This document shows positions 4,319-49,136 of a DNA stretch of 64,000 bases, one piece after another. How positions within the stretch are numbered: the first letter of the stretch is position 1; each line of letters starts with the position of its first letter. The stretch is from NCBI GenBank assembly GCA_003671025.1, contig QWPW01000003.1, positions 1-64,000 on the forward strand, given 5' to 3'. Under the pieces are notes generated by a model that was given only the letters and a program-made list of their open reading frames with translations, was not told the DNA's origin and ran no database searches. The position numbers were made by a program, and so were the translations under genes. This stretch comes from Planctomycetota bacterium (GTDB lineage Bacteria > Planctomycetota > Phycisphaerae > Phycisphaerales > SM1A02).

Positions 4319-5437
4319 ATGAAAAGCGCAGTGAAGGAGCGTATCGCGCCATCCCCCAAGACTATTCGCCGCGGTGCCACCGCCGAAGAGATGTCAGCAC
4401 GGCAGAAGGAAGTCTCGGTCAGCGAGTTCTTTGTCAAGAACCGCCACCTTCTTGGCTTTGACAACGCGCGCCGAGCCCTGCTCACCACGGTGAAGGAAGC
4501 GGTCGACAACGCGTTGGATGCGTGCGAGGAAGGCGGCATCCTTCCCGAAGTCGCCGTCATCATCGAAGACCTCGACACTCGGCGGCTCGCGACGGCGAAG
4601 AGTTCGCGCTATCGCGTGACCGTGATCGACAACGGTCCTGGCATCGTGCGCAAGCAAGTCGAAAACATCTTCGGTCGACTGTTGTATGGATCCAAGTTTC
4701 ATCGCTTGAAGATGTCGCGCGGACAGCAGGGGATTGGAATTTCCGCTGCGGGAATGAACGGCTTGATCACCACCGGTCGACCGATGGTGATTCACACGAA
4801 GCCTGGTGCCAAGCAAGAGGCGCACCACATCGAATTGGCGATGAACACCAAGACCAATCGCGCAGAAGTGACGCTTGACAAGATCACCTCCGACTTTCCA
4901 CCGGCACGATTCCGCTCACTTTCCGCAGGAACCAAGCAGCTTTTTAGCGAAGGCGCATTTCTCAGCGCGGATTCGTTCGTCACCGGAACGAGCGTGTCGA
5001 TTGAGCTCGAGGGCAAGTATCAGAAGGGCCGGGGCTCTGTCGATGGTTTGGAACCAAGCAGCTTTTTAGCGAAGGCGCATTTCTCAGCGCGGATTCGTTC
5101 GTCACCGGAACGAGCGTGTCGATTGAGCTCGAGGGCAAGTATCAGAAGGGCCGAGGCTCTGTCGATGAGTTCCTCGAACTCACCGCGATTGCCAATCCGC
5201 ATGCGCGCATCGTGTTCGTGCCACCGTCGCGTGTCGCGCAAGATGATGTCGATGATCTGTTGCCCGGAACCAGCGCGGCCGCTGCGCAAGAAAGTAAATC
5301 CGACGCGCCGGCGCAGACTACTGAAACCGGTGGACTCACCGTGTTTCCCCGCGGAGTGCATGAGCTTCCGCCGGAAACGAAAGAGATTCAGCCGCATCCC
5401 AAGGGCATTGAGTTGGGCATCTTGCTGCAGATGTTGA
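4319..5437 (+). CDS. top6B: Topoisomerase VI subunit B, N-terminal fragment (frameshifted)
   Basis: This is the N-terminal part of the ATPase subunit of type IIB topoisomerase VI, which relaxes and decatenates DNA by ATP-driven double-strand passage. Residues 1-242 are authentic. The GHKL ATPase fold shows KEAVDNALDAC (N-box, 59-69), VIDNGPGIV (102-110) and GQQGIGISA (135-143). After residue 242 the frame is lost because a 122-bp segment is tandemly duplicated, and the last ~130 residues are out-of-frame arginine/serine-rich sequence. Removing 122 bp rejoins this frame exactly to the fragment at 5116-6648, giving a 735-residue protein. The ATG at 4319 is preceded by CCTGGAACC. Subunit A follows at 6691. 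The identity is firm; whether the lesion is real or an assembly error is open. Confidence 0.88.
   Translation: MKSAVKERIAPSPKTIRRGATAEEMSARQKEVSVSEFFVKNRHLLGFDNARRALLTTVKEAVDNALDACEEGGILPEVAVIIEDLDTRRLATAKSSRYRVTVIDNGPGIVRKQVENIFGRLLYGSKFHRLKMSRGQQGIGISAAGMNGLITTGRPMVIHTKPGAKQEAHHIELAMNTKTNRAEVTLDKITSDFPPARFRSLSAGTKQLFSEGAFLSADSFVTGTSVSIELEGKYQKGRGSVDGLEPSSFLAKAHFSARIRSSPERACRLSSRASIRRAEALSMSSSNSPRLPIRMRASCSCHRRVSRKMMSMICCPEPARPLRKKVNPTRRRRLLKPVDSPCFPAECMSFRRKRKRFSRIPRALSWASCCRC
4928..5167 (+). repeat. 118-bp direct repeat disrupting top6B
   Basis: Positions 4928-5045 and 5050-5167 are the same 118-bp sequence with a single mismatch (G at 5032, A at 5154), separated by four bases (GTTT). The repeat offset is 122 bp, which is not a multiple of three, so the second copy shifts the reading frame of top6B. 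The repeat lies wholly inside the coding sequence, at the end of the GHKL domain. Confidence 0.97.
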
Positions 5438-9181: not shown

Positions 9182-9511
9182 TGTCGGGCTCCAATAAAAG
9201 TTCACAAAAATCAGGGGACGAACCCGCAGTCTCATTGTGAAGCGCGATTGCACATCGTGCAAGCGCGACACTCACATCAGATGAAGAATGCTAAAAAACA
9301 TATGCGGAGGCGGCGAAAATCGCCGCCTCCGCAAGAGTGTCTAAGTCATTTGCACACACGCTCGGAGTTGAGAGCAGATGCACCAAAGAAATTGGTGATC
9401 GCGCCTCGGCTCGTACCGCAAGTGCATTACACAAGTATCGGTTGCGAGACAACTTGCACCGACGCATGCATCAATGATTACTCGCGTGCCGCACCCTCTG
9501 GGCATCAATGA
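9182..9511. other. Intergenic region between pnp and the cold-shock gene
   Basis: These 330 bp contain the pnp terminator (9303-9333) and one full extra copy of the pnp 3' end (part of 9468-9535). The presumed promoter and leader of the cold-shock gene (9182-9290) should also lie here. No protein-coding potential is convincing. Confidence 0.6.
9303..9333 (-). terminator. Intrinsic terminator downstream of pnp
   Basis: A perfect 14-bp stem (TGCGGAGGCGGCGA and its complement) with an AAA loop. On the minus strand it is followed after a few bases by TTTTTT (9291-9296). It lies about 180 bp past the pnp stop and separates pnp from the cold-shock gene. Confidence 0.85.
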
Positions 9512-9535
9512 TTACTCGCGTGCCGCACCCTCTGG
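9468..9535. repeat. 34-bp tandem duplication spanning the pnp stop codon
   Basis: Two perfect 34-bp copies (9468-9501 and 9502-9535). The inner copy carries the last codons of pnp (P-E-G-A-A-R-E) and its TAA stop. The outer copy repeats the same codons and stop just downstream. The reading frame of pnp is not affected. Confidence 0.95.
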
Positions 9536-11665
9536 GATCGGCAACATGGCCTTGCGCGAGAGCTTGATGCGGCCGTTGTCGTCGATATTGATGACCTTCA
9601 CGGTCACCACGTCGCCGACCTTGACCTGCTCATCAACCTTCTTGACGTAGCCGTGTGCGAGTTCGCTCACGTGCACCATGCCGTCGGTGCCGGGAGCGAG
9701 TTCAACGAAGCAACCGAACTCCTTGATCGCGACGACCTTGCCCGTGTAGACCGCGCCAATGCGGATTTCCGCACCGAGCGCCTCGACCGCAGCCTTGGCC
9801 TGCGCGGCTTTTTCGGCGTTCGAGCACGCGATGAAGACGGTTCCGTCTTCTTCGACGTTGATCGTCGCACCGGTGGCCTCTTGGATGCCACGGATGGTCT
9901 TGCCGCCTGGGCCGATGAGCTTGCCGATCTTCTCGGGATCGATCTTGACGATGGTGATGCGCGGCGCGAGTGGCGAGATGTCGCCGCGTGGCTTGGCGAT
10001 GACCTTCTCCATCTCCGCGATGATGTGGAGACGGCCTTCCTTTGCGTGCGTGAAGATCACGTCGATCTCCTCGACCTTGAGTCCGCGCGCCTTGAGATCA
10101 AGCTGAATACCAGTGATGCCTTCGCGCGTGCCCGAGACCTTGAAGTCCATCTCGCCGAAGAAATCTTCTTCGCCGATGATGTCGGTCACGTGCTGAACCT
10201 TGCCGTCGGTGTCAGTGAAACGACCCACGGAAATGCCCGCGCAGGTGTTGCGAATAGGAACGCCTGCGTCCATGAGTGCAAGGCAACCGCCGCACACGCT
10301 GGCCATCGACGAAGAGCCGTTGCTCTCGGTGATGTCGCTCACCAAACGAATGGTGTAGGGGAAGTCTTCACTGGTTGGCAGGATGCCCAGCAGCGATCGC
10401 TCGGCCAACGCGCCGTGTCCTTGCTCGCGACGACCTGGGCCCATGATGCGGCCAGCTTCGCCGGTGCAGAACGGAGGAAAGTTGTAGTGCAGGTAGAACT
10501 TCTTGGCGTACTCGGCGAGCAGGCCGTCGACGATCTGCTCATCCTTGACGGTGCCGAGCGTGCAAGTCACGAGTGACTGCGTTTCGCCGCGCTGGAAGAA
10601 CGCCGAACCGTGCGTGCGTGGGAAGACTTCGACCGACATGTCGAGATCGCGAATCTGGTTGAGCTTGCGGCCGTCGGCGCGAATGCCGTGCTGCGCCACG
10701 AGATAGTGGGTGACCTTCTTCTCAAGAATGCGGAACGCTTCCTTCGCGTGCTTGAGCGCCTTCTCGGCAACCATGTGCGCGGAGTAGCTGATGCCCTCAG
10801 GAATCGCAAAGTGCGCCTTGAGGATTTCGCCCTTGATCGCGTCGACCGCAGCGTTGCGATCCTTCTTGCTGTTGATCTTGCGCGCTTCGACCAAGCGCGT
10901 GTACGCAGCGTCCTTGACCTTCTTGAAGATCTCTTCGCTCGGGGTGTTCAGTTCGCCCATGCGAATCGCTGGTGCGCCGCACTTGGCGCGGAGTTCTTCG
11001 ATGAGTTCAAAGATTGGCTTGACGCCTTCGTCGTAGCCGAAGCGAATCGCGCGAAGCATCGTGGCTTCGTCCATTTCCGCCGCGCCCACTTCGATCATGT
11101 TGATGCCGTCCTTGTGGCCCGAAAGCACAAGGTCGAGATCGCTGAATTCCATTTGCGCCTGAGTCGGATTGATGACGAAGCGTTCGCCTTGTTCCGTGAT
11201 GATGCGACCCACGCGCACGGTGGCGACTGGTCCCTGGTACGGCGCGTCGGTGATGTAGAGCGCGGCGCTTGCTGCGCTGCACGCGAGGACGTCAGCATCG
11301 TTCTGACCGTCGTGACTCATGACCCACGCTTGCAACTGAATTTCGTCGCAGAAGCCTTCGGGAAAGAGCGGACGAATCGGACGATCAATCATCCGCATCG
11401 TGAGAACTTCCTTCTCGTTGGGTGCGCCTTCACGCTTGCGGAAGCCGCCGGGGAACTTGCCCGCAGCGCCGGTCTTCTCGCGGTAATCGCAGGTGAGTGG
11501 GAAGAAGTCGATGCCCATGCGGGGATCGGCGCGAACGCAAGTCGCGAGCACGACGGTGTCGGCGTAGGTGGCCATGACGGCTCCGCTGGCGAGCTTGGCG
11601 ACGCGGCCGGTTTCGAAGCGAAGCATGCGCCCGCCCACGAGTCTTTCAACGATAGTGACTGCCAT
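9512..11665 (-). CDS. pnp: Polyribonucleotide nucleotidyltransferase (PNPase)
   Basis: A 717-residue phosphorolytic 3'-5' exoribonuclease, core of the RNA degradosome. It has two RNase PH domains. The second contains FFQRGETQSLVTCTLGT and RREQGHGALAERSLLGILP, with TRLVSDITESNGSSSMASVCGG at the active site. A KH domain (IGPGGKTIRGIQEATGATINVEEDG) and an S1 domain (GAVYTGKVVAIKEFGCFVELAPGTDGMVH) follow. The ATG at 11665 is preferred over the ATG at 11677 because GGAG lies between them at correct spacing. It follows rpsO in the classical order. Its extreme 3' end has been tandemly duplicated beyond the stop codon. Confidence 0.98.
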   Translation of the reverse strand: MAVTIVERLVGGRMLRFETGRVAKLASGAVMATYADTVVLATCVRADPRMGIDFFPLTCDYREKTGAAGKFPGGFRKREGAPNEKEVLTMRMIDRPIRPLFPEGFCDEIQLQAWVMSHDGQNDADVLACSAASAALYITDAPYQGPVATVRVGRIITEQGERFVINPTQAQMEFSDLDLVLSGHKDGINMIEVGAAEMDEATMLRAIRFGYDEGVKPIFELIEELRAKCGAPAIRMGELNTPSEEIFKKVKDAAYTRLVEARKINSKKDRNAAVDAIKGEILKAHFAIPEGISYSAHMVAEKALKHAKEAFRILEKKVTHYLVAQHGIRADGRKLNQIRDLDMSVEVFPRTHGSAFFQRGETQSLVTCTLGTVKDEQIVDGLLAEYAKKFYLHYNFPPFCTGEAGRIMGPGRREQGHGALAERSLLGILPTSEDFPYTIRLVSDITESNGSSSMASVCGGCLALMDAGVPIRNTCAGISVGRFTDTDGKVQHVTDIIGEEDFFGEMDFKVSGTREGITGIQLDLKARGLKVEEIDVIFTHAKEGRLHIIAEMEKVIAKPRGDISPLAPRITIVKIDPEKIGKLIGPGGKTIRGIQEATGATINVEEDGTVFIACSNAEKAAQAKAAVEALGAEIRIGAVYTGKVVAIKEFGCFVELAPGTDGMVHVSELAHGYVKKVDEQVKVGDVVTVKVINIDDNGRIKLSRKAMLPIPEGAARE

Positions 11666-28024: not shown

Positions 28025-28503
28025 GCGCACGCATCCGGCTTGAACTTGATTCGTTGCGCTCGACCCTCATGAGTCACGAGATCGATCCCGCGTTGGTGGG
28101 ACGCGAACTTGGAAAGTGGCTGCAAGTCCCGCAATGGATGAGCGTCTCGCTTGCCGTGTTGCTCGCGGGCGTGTTGTGTTGGTACTTCGCTCGACTCGGC
28201 CGCCCCGATGTTTCACGCGCGCGACGGTGGATGCGGCGCGCGTCGGTGTTGTGCGCGCTCGCGGCGTTGCCGCCGTTGGTGCGTGGATTGAGTTTCGTGC
28301 ATCCCCACGAAGATCGCGTGGGCTTCGCAATTGCGTGGACGATCGCGTTGATGTTCTTGCTCGCGTGGTTCGCGTTGGCGCTGATCGATTTCCTTCTGGT
28401 GTTGCGCGAAGGGATCGGCGAGTATCGAGCGCTGCGTGACGAGACCATCGGCAACCAACGCGTGCGAGCGGCGTCAGACTCCCCCAGAGATTCACATGAG
28501 TAG
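28021..28503 (+). CDS. Small integral membrane protein of unknown function
   Basis: A 160-residue protein with three predicted membrane helices (about 40-57, 73-90 and 104-128) and charged ends. I do not recognise a family. Its ATG overlaps the maf stop (ATGA), and its own stop overlaps the start of lpxK by 8 bp. It is therefore the middle gene of a maf-orf-lpxK operon. A role in the envelope is suggested only by that context. Confidence 0.75.
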   Translation: MSARIRLELDSLRSTLMSHEIDPALVGRELGKWLQVPQWMSVSLAVLLAGVLCWYFARLGRPDVSRARRWMRRASVLCALAALPPLVRGLSFVHPHEDRVGFAIAWTIALMFLLAWFALALIDFLLVLREGIGEYRALRDETIGNQRVRAASDSPRDSHE

Positions 28504-29578
28504 TGGCATGGGCGGACCACTTCCGCGCGTGCTCGCGCCGGCGACATTTCTCGCCGCGCGCGTCTACGGAGCCGTCGTTGCCGCGCGCAACACCGCGTTC
28601 GATGCGCAGCGCGGCGTGCACACGCTCACCGTCAAAGGTGTGCGAATCCCCGTGATTTCCGTGGGAAACATCACGTCGGGCGGCACGGGTAAGAGTCCGT
28701 TCGTCGCGTGGTTGTGTGGTGAACTTGCGCAGATGGGCATGCATCCCGTCATCGCGATGCGCGGCTACCGACCACACAAAGATGTCGGCAGCAACGAGCT
28801 CTTTTCCGATGAAGCGCGCGAGTACGCCACGACCGCGCCCAGTGCGACGGTCGTCGTAGGAGCGCGTCGCCATGAAGCGTTGACCATGCGACTTGGGCAG
28901 AGCGATTGCGATGCGTGGCGCGCGCGTGCGGTGGTCGTGCTTGATGATGGGTTCCAACATCGCGCGTTGTCGCGCAACCTCGACATCGTGCTCGTCGATA
29001 CCACGCGTCCTGGACTCGCGGGCGATGTGCTTCCACATGGATGGTTGCGTGAGCCGGCAAAAAATCTTGCGCGCGCCGATCTCGTCGTGCTCACCAAAGT
29101 CGCGATGGGTGATGGAGCGGTTGACGGCTCACACGCCGCGACCGTTGCAGCCGCAGAGTTGGTGCGTAGCACACGCGGCGCGTTGCCTGACGCATGTTGC
29201 GCACATCACTGGAGCGCACTTGATGTTTATCAAGACGGTGTCGCGCGCAGCGAATCAGTGCAATGGCTCGCATCACAGCGAGTCGCAATCTGTTGTGGTT
29301 TGGGAAATCCCAAGCAGTTTGAAGCAAGCGTGCGCGCCGCTGCGGGAGCCATCGTGCGCACATGGGCGCTGCCTGATCATCGGGCACTCACTGCGTCGGC
29401 ACTGGAATCGGTGTTGCAACTTCCGGGCGAAGCACAAGCGTGCGTGATCTCACGCAAAGACCTCGTCAAACTGGATCGACTGCCCGCAATGACATTGGTC
29501 GTTCCAAAACTCGAGCTCGTGTTTGACGATGGAGTCAAGCGATTGCGCGCGGCGGTGCGGCGGGTCGTGAGCGCGTGA
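28496..29578 (+). CDS. lpxK: Tetraacyldisaccharide 4'-kinase (lipid A synthesis)
   Basis: A 360-residue inner-membrane-associated kinase that phosphorylates lipid A disaccharide at the 4' position. The Walker A loop is SVGNITSGGTGKSPF near residues 54-68, preceded by an N-terminal amphipathic/membrane anchor. VVVLDDGFQHRALSRNLDIVLVD is the family hallmark, with RPGLAGDVLPHGWLREPAKNLARADLVVLTK downstream. Length matches. Its presence implies a lipid A-containing outer membrane. It is translationally coupled to the upstream membrane protein gene. The stop codon leads directly into the 11-bp GATCA repeat array. Confidence 0.95.
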   Translation: MSSGMGGPLPRVLAPATFLAARVYGAVVAARNTAFDAQRGVHTLTVKGVRIPVISVGNITSGGTGKSPFVAWLCGELAQMGMHPVIAMRGYRPHKDVGSNELFSDEAREYATTAPSATVVVGARRHEALTMRLGQSDCDAWRARAVVVLDDGFQHRALSRNLDIVLVDTTRPGLAGDVLPHGWLREPAKNLARADLVVLTKVAMGDGAVDGSHAATVAAAELVRSTRGALPDACCAHHWSALDVYQDGVARSESVQWLASQRVAICCGLGNPKQFEASVRAAAGAIVRTWALPDHRALTASALESVLQLPGEAQACVISRKDLVKLDRLPAMTLVVPKLELVFDDGVKRLRAAVRRVVSA

Positions 29579-29647
29579 TCAATGCGCGATCAATGCGCGA
29601 TCAATGCGCGATCAATGCATGATCAACATCTGATCAAAAATTGATCA
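29577..29647. repeat. 11-bp GATCA-phased repeat array
   Basis: GATCA recurs exactly every 11 bp at 29577, 29588, 29599, 29610, 29621, 29632 and 29643. The first three units are identical (GATCAATGCGC). The later ones (GATCAATGCAT, GATCAACATCT, GATCAAAAATT) are increasingly diverged. The array starts in the lpxK stop codon and ends inside the stop-proximal codons of the convergent lipoprotein gene. It also clusters seven GATC sites in 70 bp. Confidence 0.95.
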
Positions 29648-29972
29648 GCCGCTCGCGAGTGACCGTACTCGCGCGATAGAAGGTGTAGGGACGGCCGTTG
29701 TATTCCCACTGTCGATCGGTGACCGCGATTTCAACGTCATCACTGACACGGATCAACGCATCACGATGAGCGCCCAGCGTGCTGTCGTTGCGCATCATGT
29801 CGTCGTAGTCGCCCTCACTCGCGCAGAGCACCAACGCAGCGTTGGGCGCGCGTCGCTCCGGGACGCTCATCACCACAGTTGGCGAGGCGCAACTCGTCAG
29901 CACGAAGGCGGCGAGGCAGAGGCTTGCTGCGAGCATGGCTCGAGAATTGGTTCGAATCTTCAGTTTGTGCAC
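29634..29972 (-). CDS. Small lipoprotein of unknown function
   Basis: A 112-residue exported protein. The GTG at 29972 is chosen because GAGGAG lies 7 nt upstream. A basic N-terminus and hydrophobic helix lead to the lipobox LTSC (cleavage before Cys). The mature part is polar, with a PTVVMSVPERRAPNAALVL segment and a C-terminal EYNGRPYTFYRASTV. I do not recognise a family. It is convergent with lpxK, and its last codons lie in the 11-bp repeat array. Confidence 0.7.
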   Translation of the reverse strand: MHKLKIRTNSRAMLAASLCLAAFVLTSCASPTVVMSVPERRAPNAALVLCASEGDYDDMMRNDSTLGAHRDALIRVSDDVEIAVTDRQWEYNGRPYTFYRASTVTRERLINF

Positions 29973-30256
29973 ATCAGTTCTCCTCGCTGAGCGTGGCGCG
30001 ACTCGCGTCGGAGGCAAGTCGAATGGGTCAGGATTGCCGCGTATGAGGCACTCTTGCGCCATCCAGACCGAACAGATCATCCCGCGGTAGTCCGCAAACT
30101 CATTTGCGAAGGCGCTCGACGCGTGCAAGTAAACGAACATCGTTAAAGCCTTGACTTTGCACGGTCTGTGCATGGATACTCGGTCTGTTCTCTGTTCCTT
30201 CCCTTGACATCCTTCGCGGCTTGCCGCGCTCAACCCCGCACAATCTGAGGTAAGAG

Positions 30257-30598
30257 ATGGCTACCACGACCAAGAAAGACCTGATCGAGCGCGTTGCGAC
30301 GGAGACGGATATCTCGCGCGCGGATGTGCGAAGAGCAGTGCAGAGTTTTCTCGAGCACGTCATCGATGAGCTCGCCCGCGGAAACCGCCTGGAGTTTCGC
30401 GACTTCGGAGTGTTTGAGATTCGCGAACGCGCGGAACGTGTCGCGCAAAACCCCAAGACCCTCGAGCGTGTTTCCGTTCCTGCGCGCAAGAGTGTGCGCT
30501 TCAAAGTCGGTCGCTTGATGCAGCAGTCGCTCGCAACCGGCGCAACGGGAGCATCAGGAAAGCGCGTTGCCGTTGGGGCTCTCGACGACAACGAGTGA
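30257..30598 (+). CDS. HU/IHF-family DNA-binding protein
   Basis: A 113-residue nucleoid-associated protein that bends DNA as a dimer. It reads TKKDLIERVATETDISRADVRRAVQSFLEHVIDELARGNRLEFRDFGVFEIRERAERVAQNPKT, with the minor-groove arm around VAQNPKTLERVSVPARKSVRFKVG. A proline next to the arm tip is typical. A C-terminal extension of about 18 residues beyond the normal HU end is glycine/alanine-rich. GAGGT precedes the ATG at 30257. An 11-bp tandem repeat follows its stop codon. Confidence 0.95.
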   Translation: MATTTKKDLIERVATETDISRADVRRAVQSFLEHVIDELARGNRLEFRDFGVFEIRERAERVAQNPKTLERVSVPARKSVRFKVGRLMQQSLATGATGASGKRVAVGALDDNE

Positions 30599-48083: not shown

Positions 48084-49136
48084 ATGCTGCGCGGTGTGCA
48101 ATTCACTCGCTTTGTCGATAGTCACACCGAAGGCGAGCCCACGCGAGTGCTGCTTGGCCCGGATGGCGGGATGTTTCCCATCACGCTCGACGCATTGATT
48201 GCGTCATGGACGCGCGATGGTCGCGTGGTGGTTCCCGACGATTGCCTGAGTTTGGCTGGACATCCGCGCGCGGCCGATGCCACGGTGTGCGCGTGTGTTT
48301 GTCGCCCCTCGCCGCGTCACTCATCGCAGCAAGCCGCGTTGTGTGGCGTGCTGTTTTGGAATGCAGCTGGCGTGCTGGGCATGTGCGGTCACGGAACGAT
48401 TGGCATGGCGCGCACTCTGGCTCATCTTGGTGTGTGTGTGCATGGTTGCCATGTGATCGAGACTCGCGTGGGCGATGTGTCGATCGAGTTCATCGACGAC
48501 GGTCGCGTCGCGTTTGAGAATGTTCCCTCGCGCGTGCATGCGCGCGATGTCGAGGTGGTGCTCGAAGAGGGTGGCGTTGTGCGCGGTGATATCGCGTGGG
48601 GCGGCAATTGGTTTTTCATCGTGCGTCTCGAGCGAAGCATGCGCAGTCACGCCGAAGAACTTACGTTTTCATGCAGCATTTTGCGCGGTTTACAACGCGC
48701 GGGCATCGCGGCGGGAGCAGAGAACAACGGCATCATCGATCACGTGCACCTGGTGTTTCCCGCTTCGCGCAGCGACGCCAATGCGCGCAACTTCGTTCTT
48801 TGCCCCAACGGAACCTTCGATCGTTCGCCTTCGCGCAGCGACGCCAATGCGCGCAACTTCGTTCTTTGCCCCAACGGAACCTTCGATCGTTCGCCCTGCG
48901 GCACAGGGACGAGCGCGCTGTTGGCACTGCTCGCGGCGCGCGGTGAACTCGCAGCGGGCGCTCCGTGGAAACAAGAGTCTGCGATCTCGAGCATCTTCGA
49001 CGCGCGTTGGAGCGCGGGCGAAGCCGGTGCGGTGCGACCACGCATCATCGGACGCGCGTTCATCGTGGCGGAAGGAACATTGGTGCACGACGCACGCGAT
49101 CCATCGCGCAGCGGTGCGTGGAGAGAACACACATGA
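48084..49136 (+). CDS. Proline racemase-family epimerase, likely 4-hydroxyproline 2-epimerase, with in-frame duplication
   Basis: A 350-residue protein in which both catalytic cysteines of racemases are present: C101 in GVLGMCGHGTIG and C272 in DRSPCGTGTSA. This argues against a dehydratase. It interconverts trans-4-hydroxy-L-proline and cis-4-hydroxy-D-proline (inferred from neighbours). A perfect 66-bp in-frame tandem duplication (48763-48894) adds 22 residues, repeating SRSDANARNFVLCPNGTFDRSP directly before the second catalytic cysteine, which may inactivate it. Start ATG 48084 is uncertain: GTG at 48096, 7 nt after a TATGCT box, gives a more typical N-terminus. The stop overlaps the malic enzyme start (ATGA). 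Confidence 0.82.
   Translation: MLRGVQFTRFVDSHTEGEPTRVLLGPDGGMFPITLDALIASWTRDGRVVVPDDCLSLAGHPRAADATVCACVCRPSPRHSSQQAALCGVLFWNAAGVLGMCGHGTIGMARTLAHLGVCVHGCHVIETRVGDVSIEFIDDGRVAFENVPSRVHARDVEVVLEEGGVVRGDIAWGGNWFFIVRLERSMRSHAEELTFSCSILRGLQRAGIAAGAENNGIIDHVHLVFPASRSDANARNFVLCPNGTFDRSPSRSDANARNFVLCPNGTFDRSPCGTGTSALLALLAARGELAAGAPWKQESAISSIFDARWSAGEAGAVRPRIIGRAFIVAEGTLVHDARDPSRSGAWREHT
48763..48894 (+). repeat. 66-bp perfect in-frame tandem duplication in the epimerase gene
   Basis: Copies occupy 48763-48828 and 48829-48894 with no mismatch. As 66 is a multiple of three the frame is kept, and a 22-residue block is repeated. The block is the strand leading to the C-terminal catalytic cysteine. Confidence 0.97.

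Follow-up and report, generated by a model that had tools for sequence, protein, structure and literature searches.

REP/BIME-type repeats occur in many copies near the 3' ends of genes and have a palindromic core, and the iterons of Vibrio cholerae RctB are direct repeats with a GATC-containing, TGATCA-like core. Lake Planctomycetota have been described as carrying disproportionately many structural variants, with noncoding deletions often located at intergenic tandem repeats and slippage named as a cause in the passage concerned (PMC9426551). Intergenic tandem-repeat variation in lake Planctomycetota is, as far as that passage goes, already in print. According to passages of another study, intergenic tandem repeats of 6-11 bp are over-represented in some archaea, e.g., Methanococcus voltae, and longer loops are repaired less efficiently by the mismatch repair system (PMC4060949). 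Freshwater Phycisphaerae were described in PMC6461901, in passages that do not mention such arrays. The literature searches made did not turn up a paper on stop-codon GATC arrays or on a GATC stop-codon bias.

The array described here is located between lpxK and a small convergent gene, in a window of 64,000 nucleotides (the whole stretch of DNA that was analysed). The features of the locus are:

28496-29578, plus strand: lpxK (PF02606, E 1.6e-58; gene caller)
29577-29647, no strand assigned: GATCA-core 11-bp tandem array, seven copies (sequence, TRF, shuffles)
29610-29646, no strand assigned: possible nested hairpin of units 4-7, GATCAAT/ATTGATC outer and TGATCA/TGATCA inner (fold)
29634-29936, minus strand: small convergent lipoprotein-like gene (own gene caller)

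The GATCA cores start at 29577, 29588, 29599, 29610, 29621, 29632, and 29643, with a spacing of 11 bp throughout, and the six 6-bp linkers read, from the lpxK side, ATGCGC (three times), ATGCAT, ACATCT, and AAAATT. TRF reported 4.9 copies of 11 bp at 29573-29626 and 2.5 copies of 11 bp at 29620-29647, and the short units stand head to tail, as in minisatellites and VNTRs. The earlier note had described seven GATCA in an 11-bp register with a gradient of divergence from lpxK towards the convergent gene. The register was borne out by the positions and by 100 dinucleotide shuffles of the window, which gave no four-copy match versus four (overlapping) in the real window; the gradient is seen in the linkers, which are identical at lpxK and degrade onward.

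The stop codon of lpxK (TGA, 29576-29578) falls within the first TGATCA unit. The stop codon of the convergent gene (29634-29636) is inside the sixth unit, and the last residues of its product, INF, are encoded by the array, which lies between the two reading-frame ends, 55 bp apart in the window genome. A Pfam search with the convergent ORF returned no match, and the product appears lipoprotein-like from the earlier note and a lipobox-like motif. The convergent protein was recognisable in six congeners (by eye, from a DRQ...GR motif), five of which have overlapping frame ends and one a gap of 33 bp between them; its C-terminal residues in these congeners are other than INF. A gene for an HU-like DNA-binding protein (PF00216, 2e-27) lies at 30257-30598, 0.6 kb from the array, probably by coincidence.

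In the window genome (G000), searching for at least three GATCA at 11 bp gave 46 matches, which were grouped by eye into 17 arrays, versus none in the reversed control. GATCA also recurs at 10 bp (6 arrays), at 12 bp (18 arrays, several of them inside genes), and at 13 bp (three stretches on one contig), the 10-bp and 12-bp matches being likewise grouped by eye. The 11-bp pattern was present in 15 of 41 genomes, i.e., in 12 of the 16 genomes of the genus and in 3 of the 25 from other genera, the latter with a single three-copy match each. The notion that the array might be an isolated case, which the earlier note had regarded as a refutation, fails, as similar arrays with periods of 10, 11, 12, and 13 bp are common in the genus. 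The earlier note's placing of seven GATC palindromes on a single helix face holds as geometry for the window array and does not extend to the kin arrays with periods of 10, 12, and 13 bp. Confinement of GATCA arrays to the genus was rejected, with four-copy arrays in many phyla (at least 118 stretches); since other phyla and genera carry them, a single array is not diagnostic. The linkers are locus-specific, each locus having its own unit, and the arrays are dispersed over the genome.

Most units in the 10-12 bp arrays of the genus are other than GATC. For the density of noncoding arrays, genes were called with our own hexamer caller, a single row was kept wherever TRF rows overlapped, and arrays lying >60% in genes were removed. 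Arrays with a period of 10-12 bp then numbered, per 10 kb of intergenic DNA, 4.51 in G000, 3.28 in G001, 6.25 in G008, 2.86 in G014, and 6.45 in G013; none was found in 31.6 kb of sampled intergenic DNA from outgroups (G016, G020, and the pool of G024, G025, and G028) and E. coli. Units of 13-18 bp are also common (3.75 and 5.68 per 10 kb in G001 and G008, respectively), so the unit length is about, not exactly, one helical turn. Spacings of 10-12 bp between copies of a 5-mer are over-represented in the noncoding DNA of G000 (ratios 1.66, 2.63, and 2.54); in G001, the ratio is 0.95 at 11 bp (no excess) and 3.46 at 12 bp. Small samples make such ratios noisy: the pool of G024, G025, and G028 reaches 2.74 at 12 bp without TRF arrays.

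Compared with the RctB iterons, the arrays here are spread over about 41 loci, some of them in genes, and their linkers differ from locus to locus; they do not share a common unit at a replication origin, and no Dam-type methylase was found in G000 (95.9% complete) with the PF02086 profile, the only one used. The likeness to REP/BIME-type repeats lies in the many copies near 3' ends and in the palindromic core; unlike those, no dispersed consensus element is seen here, the unit being particular to each locus. The tandem repeats of lake Planctomycetota (PMC9426551), as well as bacterial VNTRs and minisatellites, resemble the arrays in their short intergenic units and in copy number that varies among relatives. 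In the relevant passage of PMC9426551, neither unit length nor core motif nor a bias to gene ends is given; here the units cluster at 10-14 bp and a GATC subclass lies on stop codons. The archaeal repeats (PMC4060949) share a lineage-specific intergenic excess and a similar unit length; they belong to other lineages, and the passages on them hold no core motif or gene-end placement.

At the lpxK locus, no such array was present in any of 15 congeners when 420 bp downstream of lpxK were viewed; their LpxK is 48-58% identical to that of the window, and for this array only absence in distant congeners is observable. One congener (G011) has an 11-bp GATCA array about 1 kb past its lpxK. Downstream of lpxK in the same genome (L199), three copies of a longer GATCCATGCGC-containing repeat lie about 25 bp apart in or near the convergent gene, and G008 (L205) has an unrelated 12-bp array of repeated GCAAGCATGTTC-like 12-mers downstream of the lpxK homologue.

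Copy numbers were compared between two sister species, G002 and G012, in alignments that were 88-96% identical. An 11-bp GATC array has 7.2 versus 3.3 copies, a 12-bp non-GATC array 6.2 versus 3.1, and a 12-bp GATC array, which the gene calls place in coding DNA in just one of the two species, 5.1 versus 8.8. An array with a CTCAT core common to both species and differing linkers has 4.5 versus 8.1 copies, and at one locus the unit length itself differs between the two species (12 bp versus 13 bp). Two noncoding arrays are stable, one of 11-bp GATC units (3.1 versus 2.8 copies) and one of 12 bp (3.6 in both). Whole-unit variation among close relatives, the mark of VNTRs, is thus seen for the kin arrays. 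In-gene 12-bp arrays at L279 (10308-11403) differ by 12 or 24 bp between the same two species.

The GATC arrays are not placed evenly with respect to genes. Among noncoding arrays of 10-12 bp, 31 of the 44 GATC arrays are nearer to a gene 3' end than to a 5' end (non-GATC, 38 of 84). Within 40 bp of a 3' end lie 28/44 GATC versus 28/84 non-GATC arrays (Fisher p 0.0014; 25-28% under random placement), and a stop codon is covered by 16/44 versus 7/84 (Fisher p 0.00018; 10-11% expected). In 13 of the 16 stop-covering GATC arrays, a TGATC unit supplies the stop through its TGA. The 44 arrays were for the most part targeted with a pattern, one blind to gene positions, and the array-centred stretches over-sample GATC. 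In the stretches that had not been picked for GATC arrays, 6/24 arrays in G000 and 2/9 in G013 had GATC units, and 0/7, 0/11, and 0/5 in G001, G008, and G014, respectively; the G000 contigs of this set are those without 11-bp GATCA matches, so GATC is under-sampled there. Of the six GATC arrays in these G000 stretches, three lie no farther than 40 bp from a 3' end (null 25%) and one overlaps such an end, and both of those in G013 are closer to a 5' end. Arrays of other periods in G000 also lean towards 3' ends (20/60 within 40 bp, null 26%).

Within stretches not chosen for GATC arrays, a second TGATC follows 10-12 bp downstream of 3/50 TGATC stops, versus 3/815 other stops with their own 5-mer repeated (Fisher p 0.003). 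Generic stop-codon seeding is therefore insufficient, and TGATC itself seems to matter, though the numbers are small. TGATC as a favoured stop context was rejected, TC following TGA stops in 8.1% versus 9.7% in the background. A general closeness of TGATCA to stops was also rejected: overall, 20 are near and 13 far (p 0.02), but for single copies alone the counts are 10 and 7 (p 0.14). GATCA is the leading core in the G000 sequence examined, with 22 noncoding arrays, of which 17 come from the genome-wide targeting and 5 have a period of 10 or 12 bp; no unrelated 5-mer exceeds 4. After removal of arrays with exact GATCA triples, GATC fell to 17/190, about background, while TCAA (34, expected 17.4) and CATG (25, expected 11.2) were raised in the same set. 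Among 15 arrays outside the GATCA pattern, mismatches affect 14/226 of the GATC positions versus 66/447 of the others, which is a hint of constraint, although neighbouring sites of one array do not vary independently. For these arrays, the conservation rank of the GATC window averaged 0.39 (null 0.5), a weak effect; arrays without mismatches or with >30% mismatch were dropped from this test. The 43 pattern-matching arrays (16/792 versus 119/1380) are biased by choice.

We consider it probable that the window array is one of the fast-evolving intergenic minisatellites found across the genus, with units of about 10-14 bp, and that it was born by tandem duplication at the convergent junction. Its absence from all 15 congeners, together with the copy-number change of its kin, points to a young, variable minisatellite and not to a conserved site. 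The duplication would have proceeded by replication slippage or unequal recombination. Seeding on the lpxK stop codon may have come first, followed by expansion between the two convergent genes; since TGATCA reads TGA on either strand, that stop could have served as the starting point, and both frames would still end in units as the array spread. We further infer that the window copy has no dedicated function. The earlier note had proposed a decaying repeat seeded by the lpxK stop. Seeding fits an array that is species-specific, starts exactly at the stop, and has copy-number-variable kin; decay is half of the picture, as kin arrays both gain and lose copies relative to their sisters.

Plain slippage leaves the clustering of GATC at 3' ends and the lead of GATCA unexplained. 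Tentatively, TGATC(A) might actively promote or maintain tandem expansion at 3' ends with the help of a protein that recognises GATC, such as a nickase, a recombinase, or a nucleoid protein, with phased units continually rebuilding the 3' ends and supplying stops, an extension that we hold to be rather unlikely. Generic palindrome-driven slippage was rejected, 6-bp palindromes occurring in 26/173 non-GATC units (33 expected), and so was loss of mismatch repair, MutS (TIGR01070) being matched in 41/41 relatives, 35 of them over the cut-off. SbcD (TIGR00619) was over the cut-off in 0/41 genomes of this and related families, with five weak matches; it is also unmatched in genera where TRF found no arrays and does not explain the trait. 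An uptake-like dispersed word was rejected, none having a high copy number; the top intergenic 9-mer, CTGATCACG, occurs in 14/483 regions versus 2.4 expected, partly because array loci were targeted.

A methylation-sensitive site, as suggested in the earlier note, lost ground. The GATC adenine methylase that accompanies Dam/SeqA-type sites was missing from the PF02086 search of G000, and the family was matched in 2/16 genomes of the genus and in 0/9 of the better ones, G000 included; Dam-type methylation of the array is unlikely. A phased platform is also unlikely, and somewhat more so than the GATC-driven expansion above; here a dimeric protein would bind TGATCA cooperatively along one helix face, e.g., as a roadblock or in nucleoid organisation. 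The retention of the GATC core among varying linkers, in the window and in the mismatch counts, would suit such a protein, as would the leading GATCA core and the 3'-end bias. Against it stand the lack of the array at the lpxK end of all 15 congeners, a period that may be 10, 11, 12, or 13 bp and that differs (12 versus 13 bp) between sister species at one locus, and linkers specific to the locus; moreover, most arrays of the class lack GATC, which is near background once GATCA triples are removed.

At the RNA level, evenly spaced pyrimidine-C dinucleotides are an idea for the spacing of Rho loading. From the 3' UTR, the array might help to end transcripts, either by forming a weak hairpin that works in both directions or by offering a row of such Rho-loading sites. 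The location at gene 3' ends would agree with this, as would the hairpin from units 4-7 and the folding of 22/44 GATC versus 22/84 other arrays with a best-strand z below -2. As RNA, 29570-29660 has a slight folding advantage over its shuffles (z -1.76; 8/200 equal or better), but 29573-29626 alone does not (z -0.13 and -0.38). The scan of 29300-30300 revealed no intrinsic terminator (G+C-rich stem and T run) at the array, and its sole terminator-like site is inside lpxK (29438-29455, minus strand; 0.9 expected by chance). Neither a promoter nor a known RNA family falls on the array, Rfam gave no match, and homologous lpxK ends do without it, which together make a role in RNA very unlikely. 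Least credible is a six-frame stop trap, where a TGATCA per 10 or 11 bp places TGA in all frames of both strands and was either selected or captured frame ends passively. The TGATC-derived stops noted above fit it, and the convergent gene ends in the second unit that it meets, gaining INF; against it, frame-neutral 12-bp arrays (18) are as numerous as 11-bp ones (17), though several of the former are in genes, and TC is not preferred after TGA stops. Passive capture of frame ends is possible and compatible with the minisatellite explanation.

The arrays could be used directly as fast-evolving markers, and they are a natural experiment in the origin and spread of bacterial tandem duplications of roughly one helical turn. 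Should a protein lie behind the GATC preference, uncultured planctomycetes would have a DNA-binding or DNA-cutting activity that is new to science. The window also contains near-perfect two-copy tandem duplications of 122 bp (4928-5167), 34 bp (9468-9536), and 66 bp (48763-48895), which suggests that larger recent tandem duplications occur as well.
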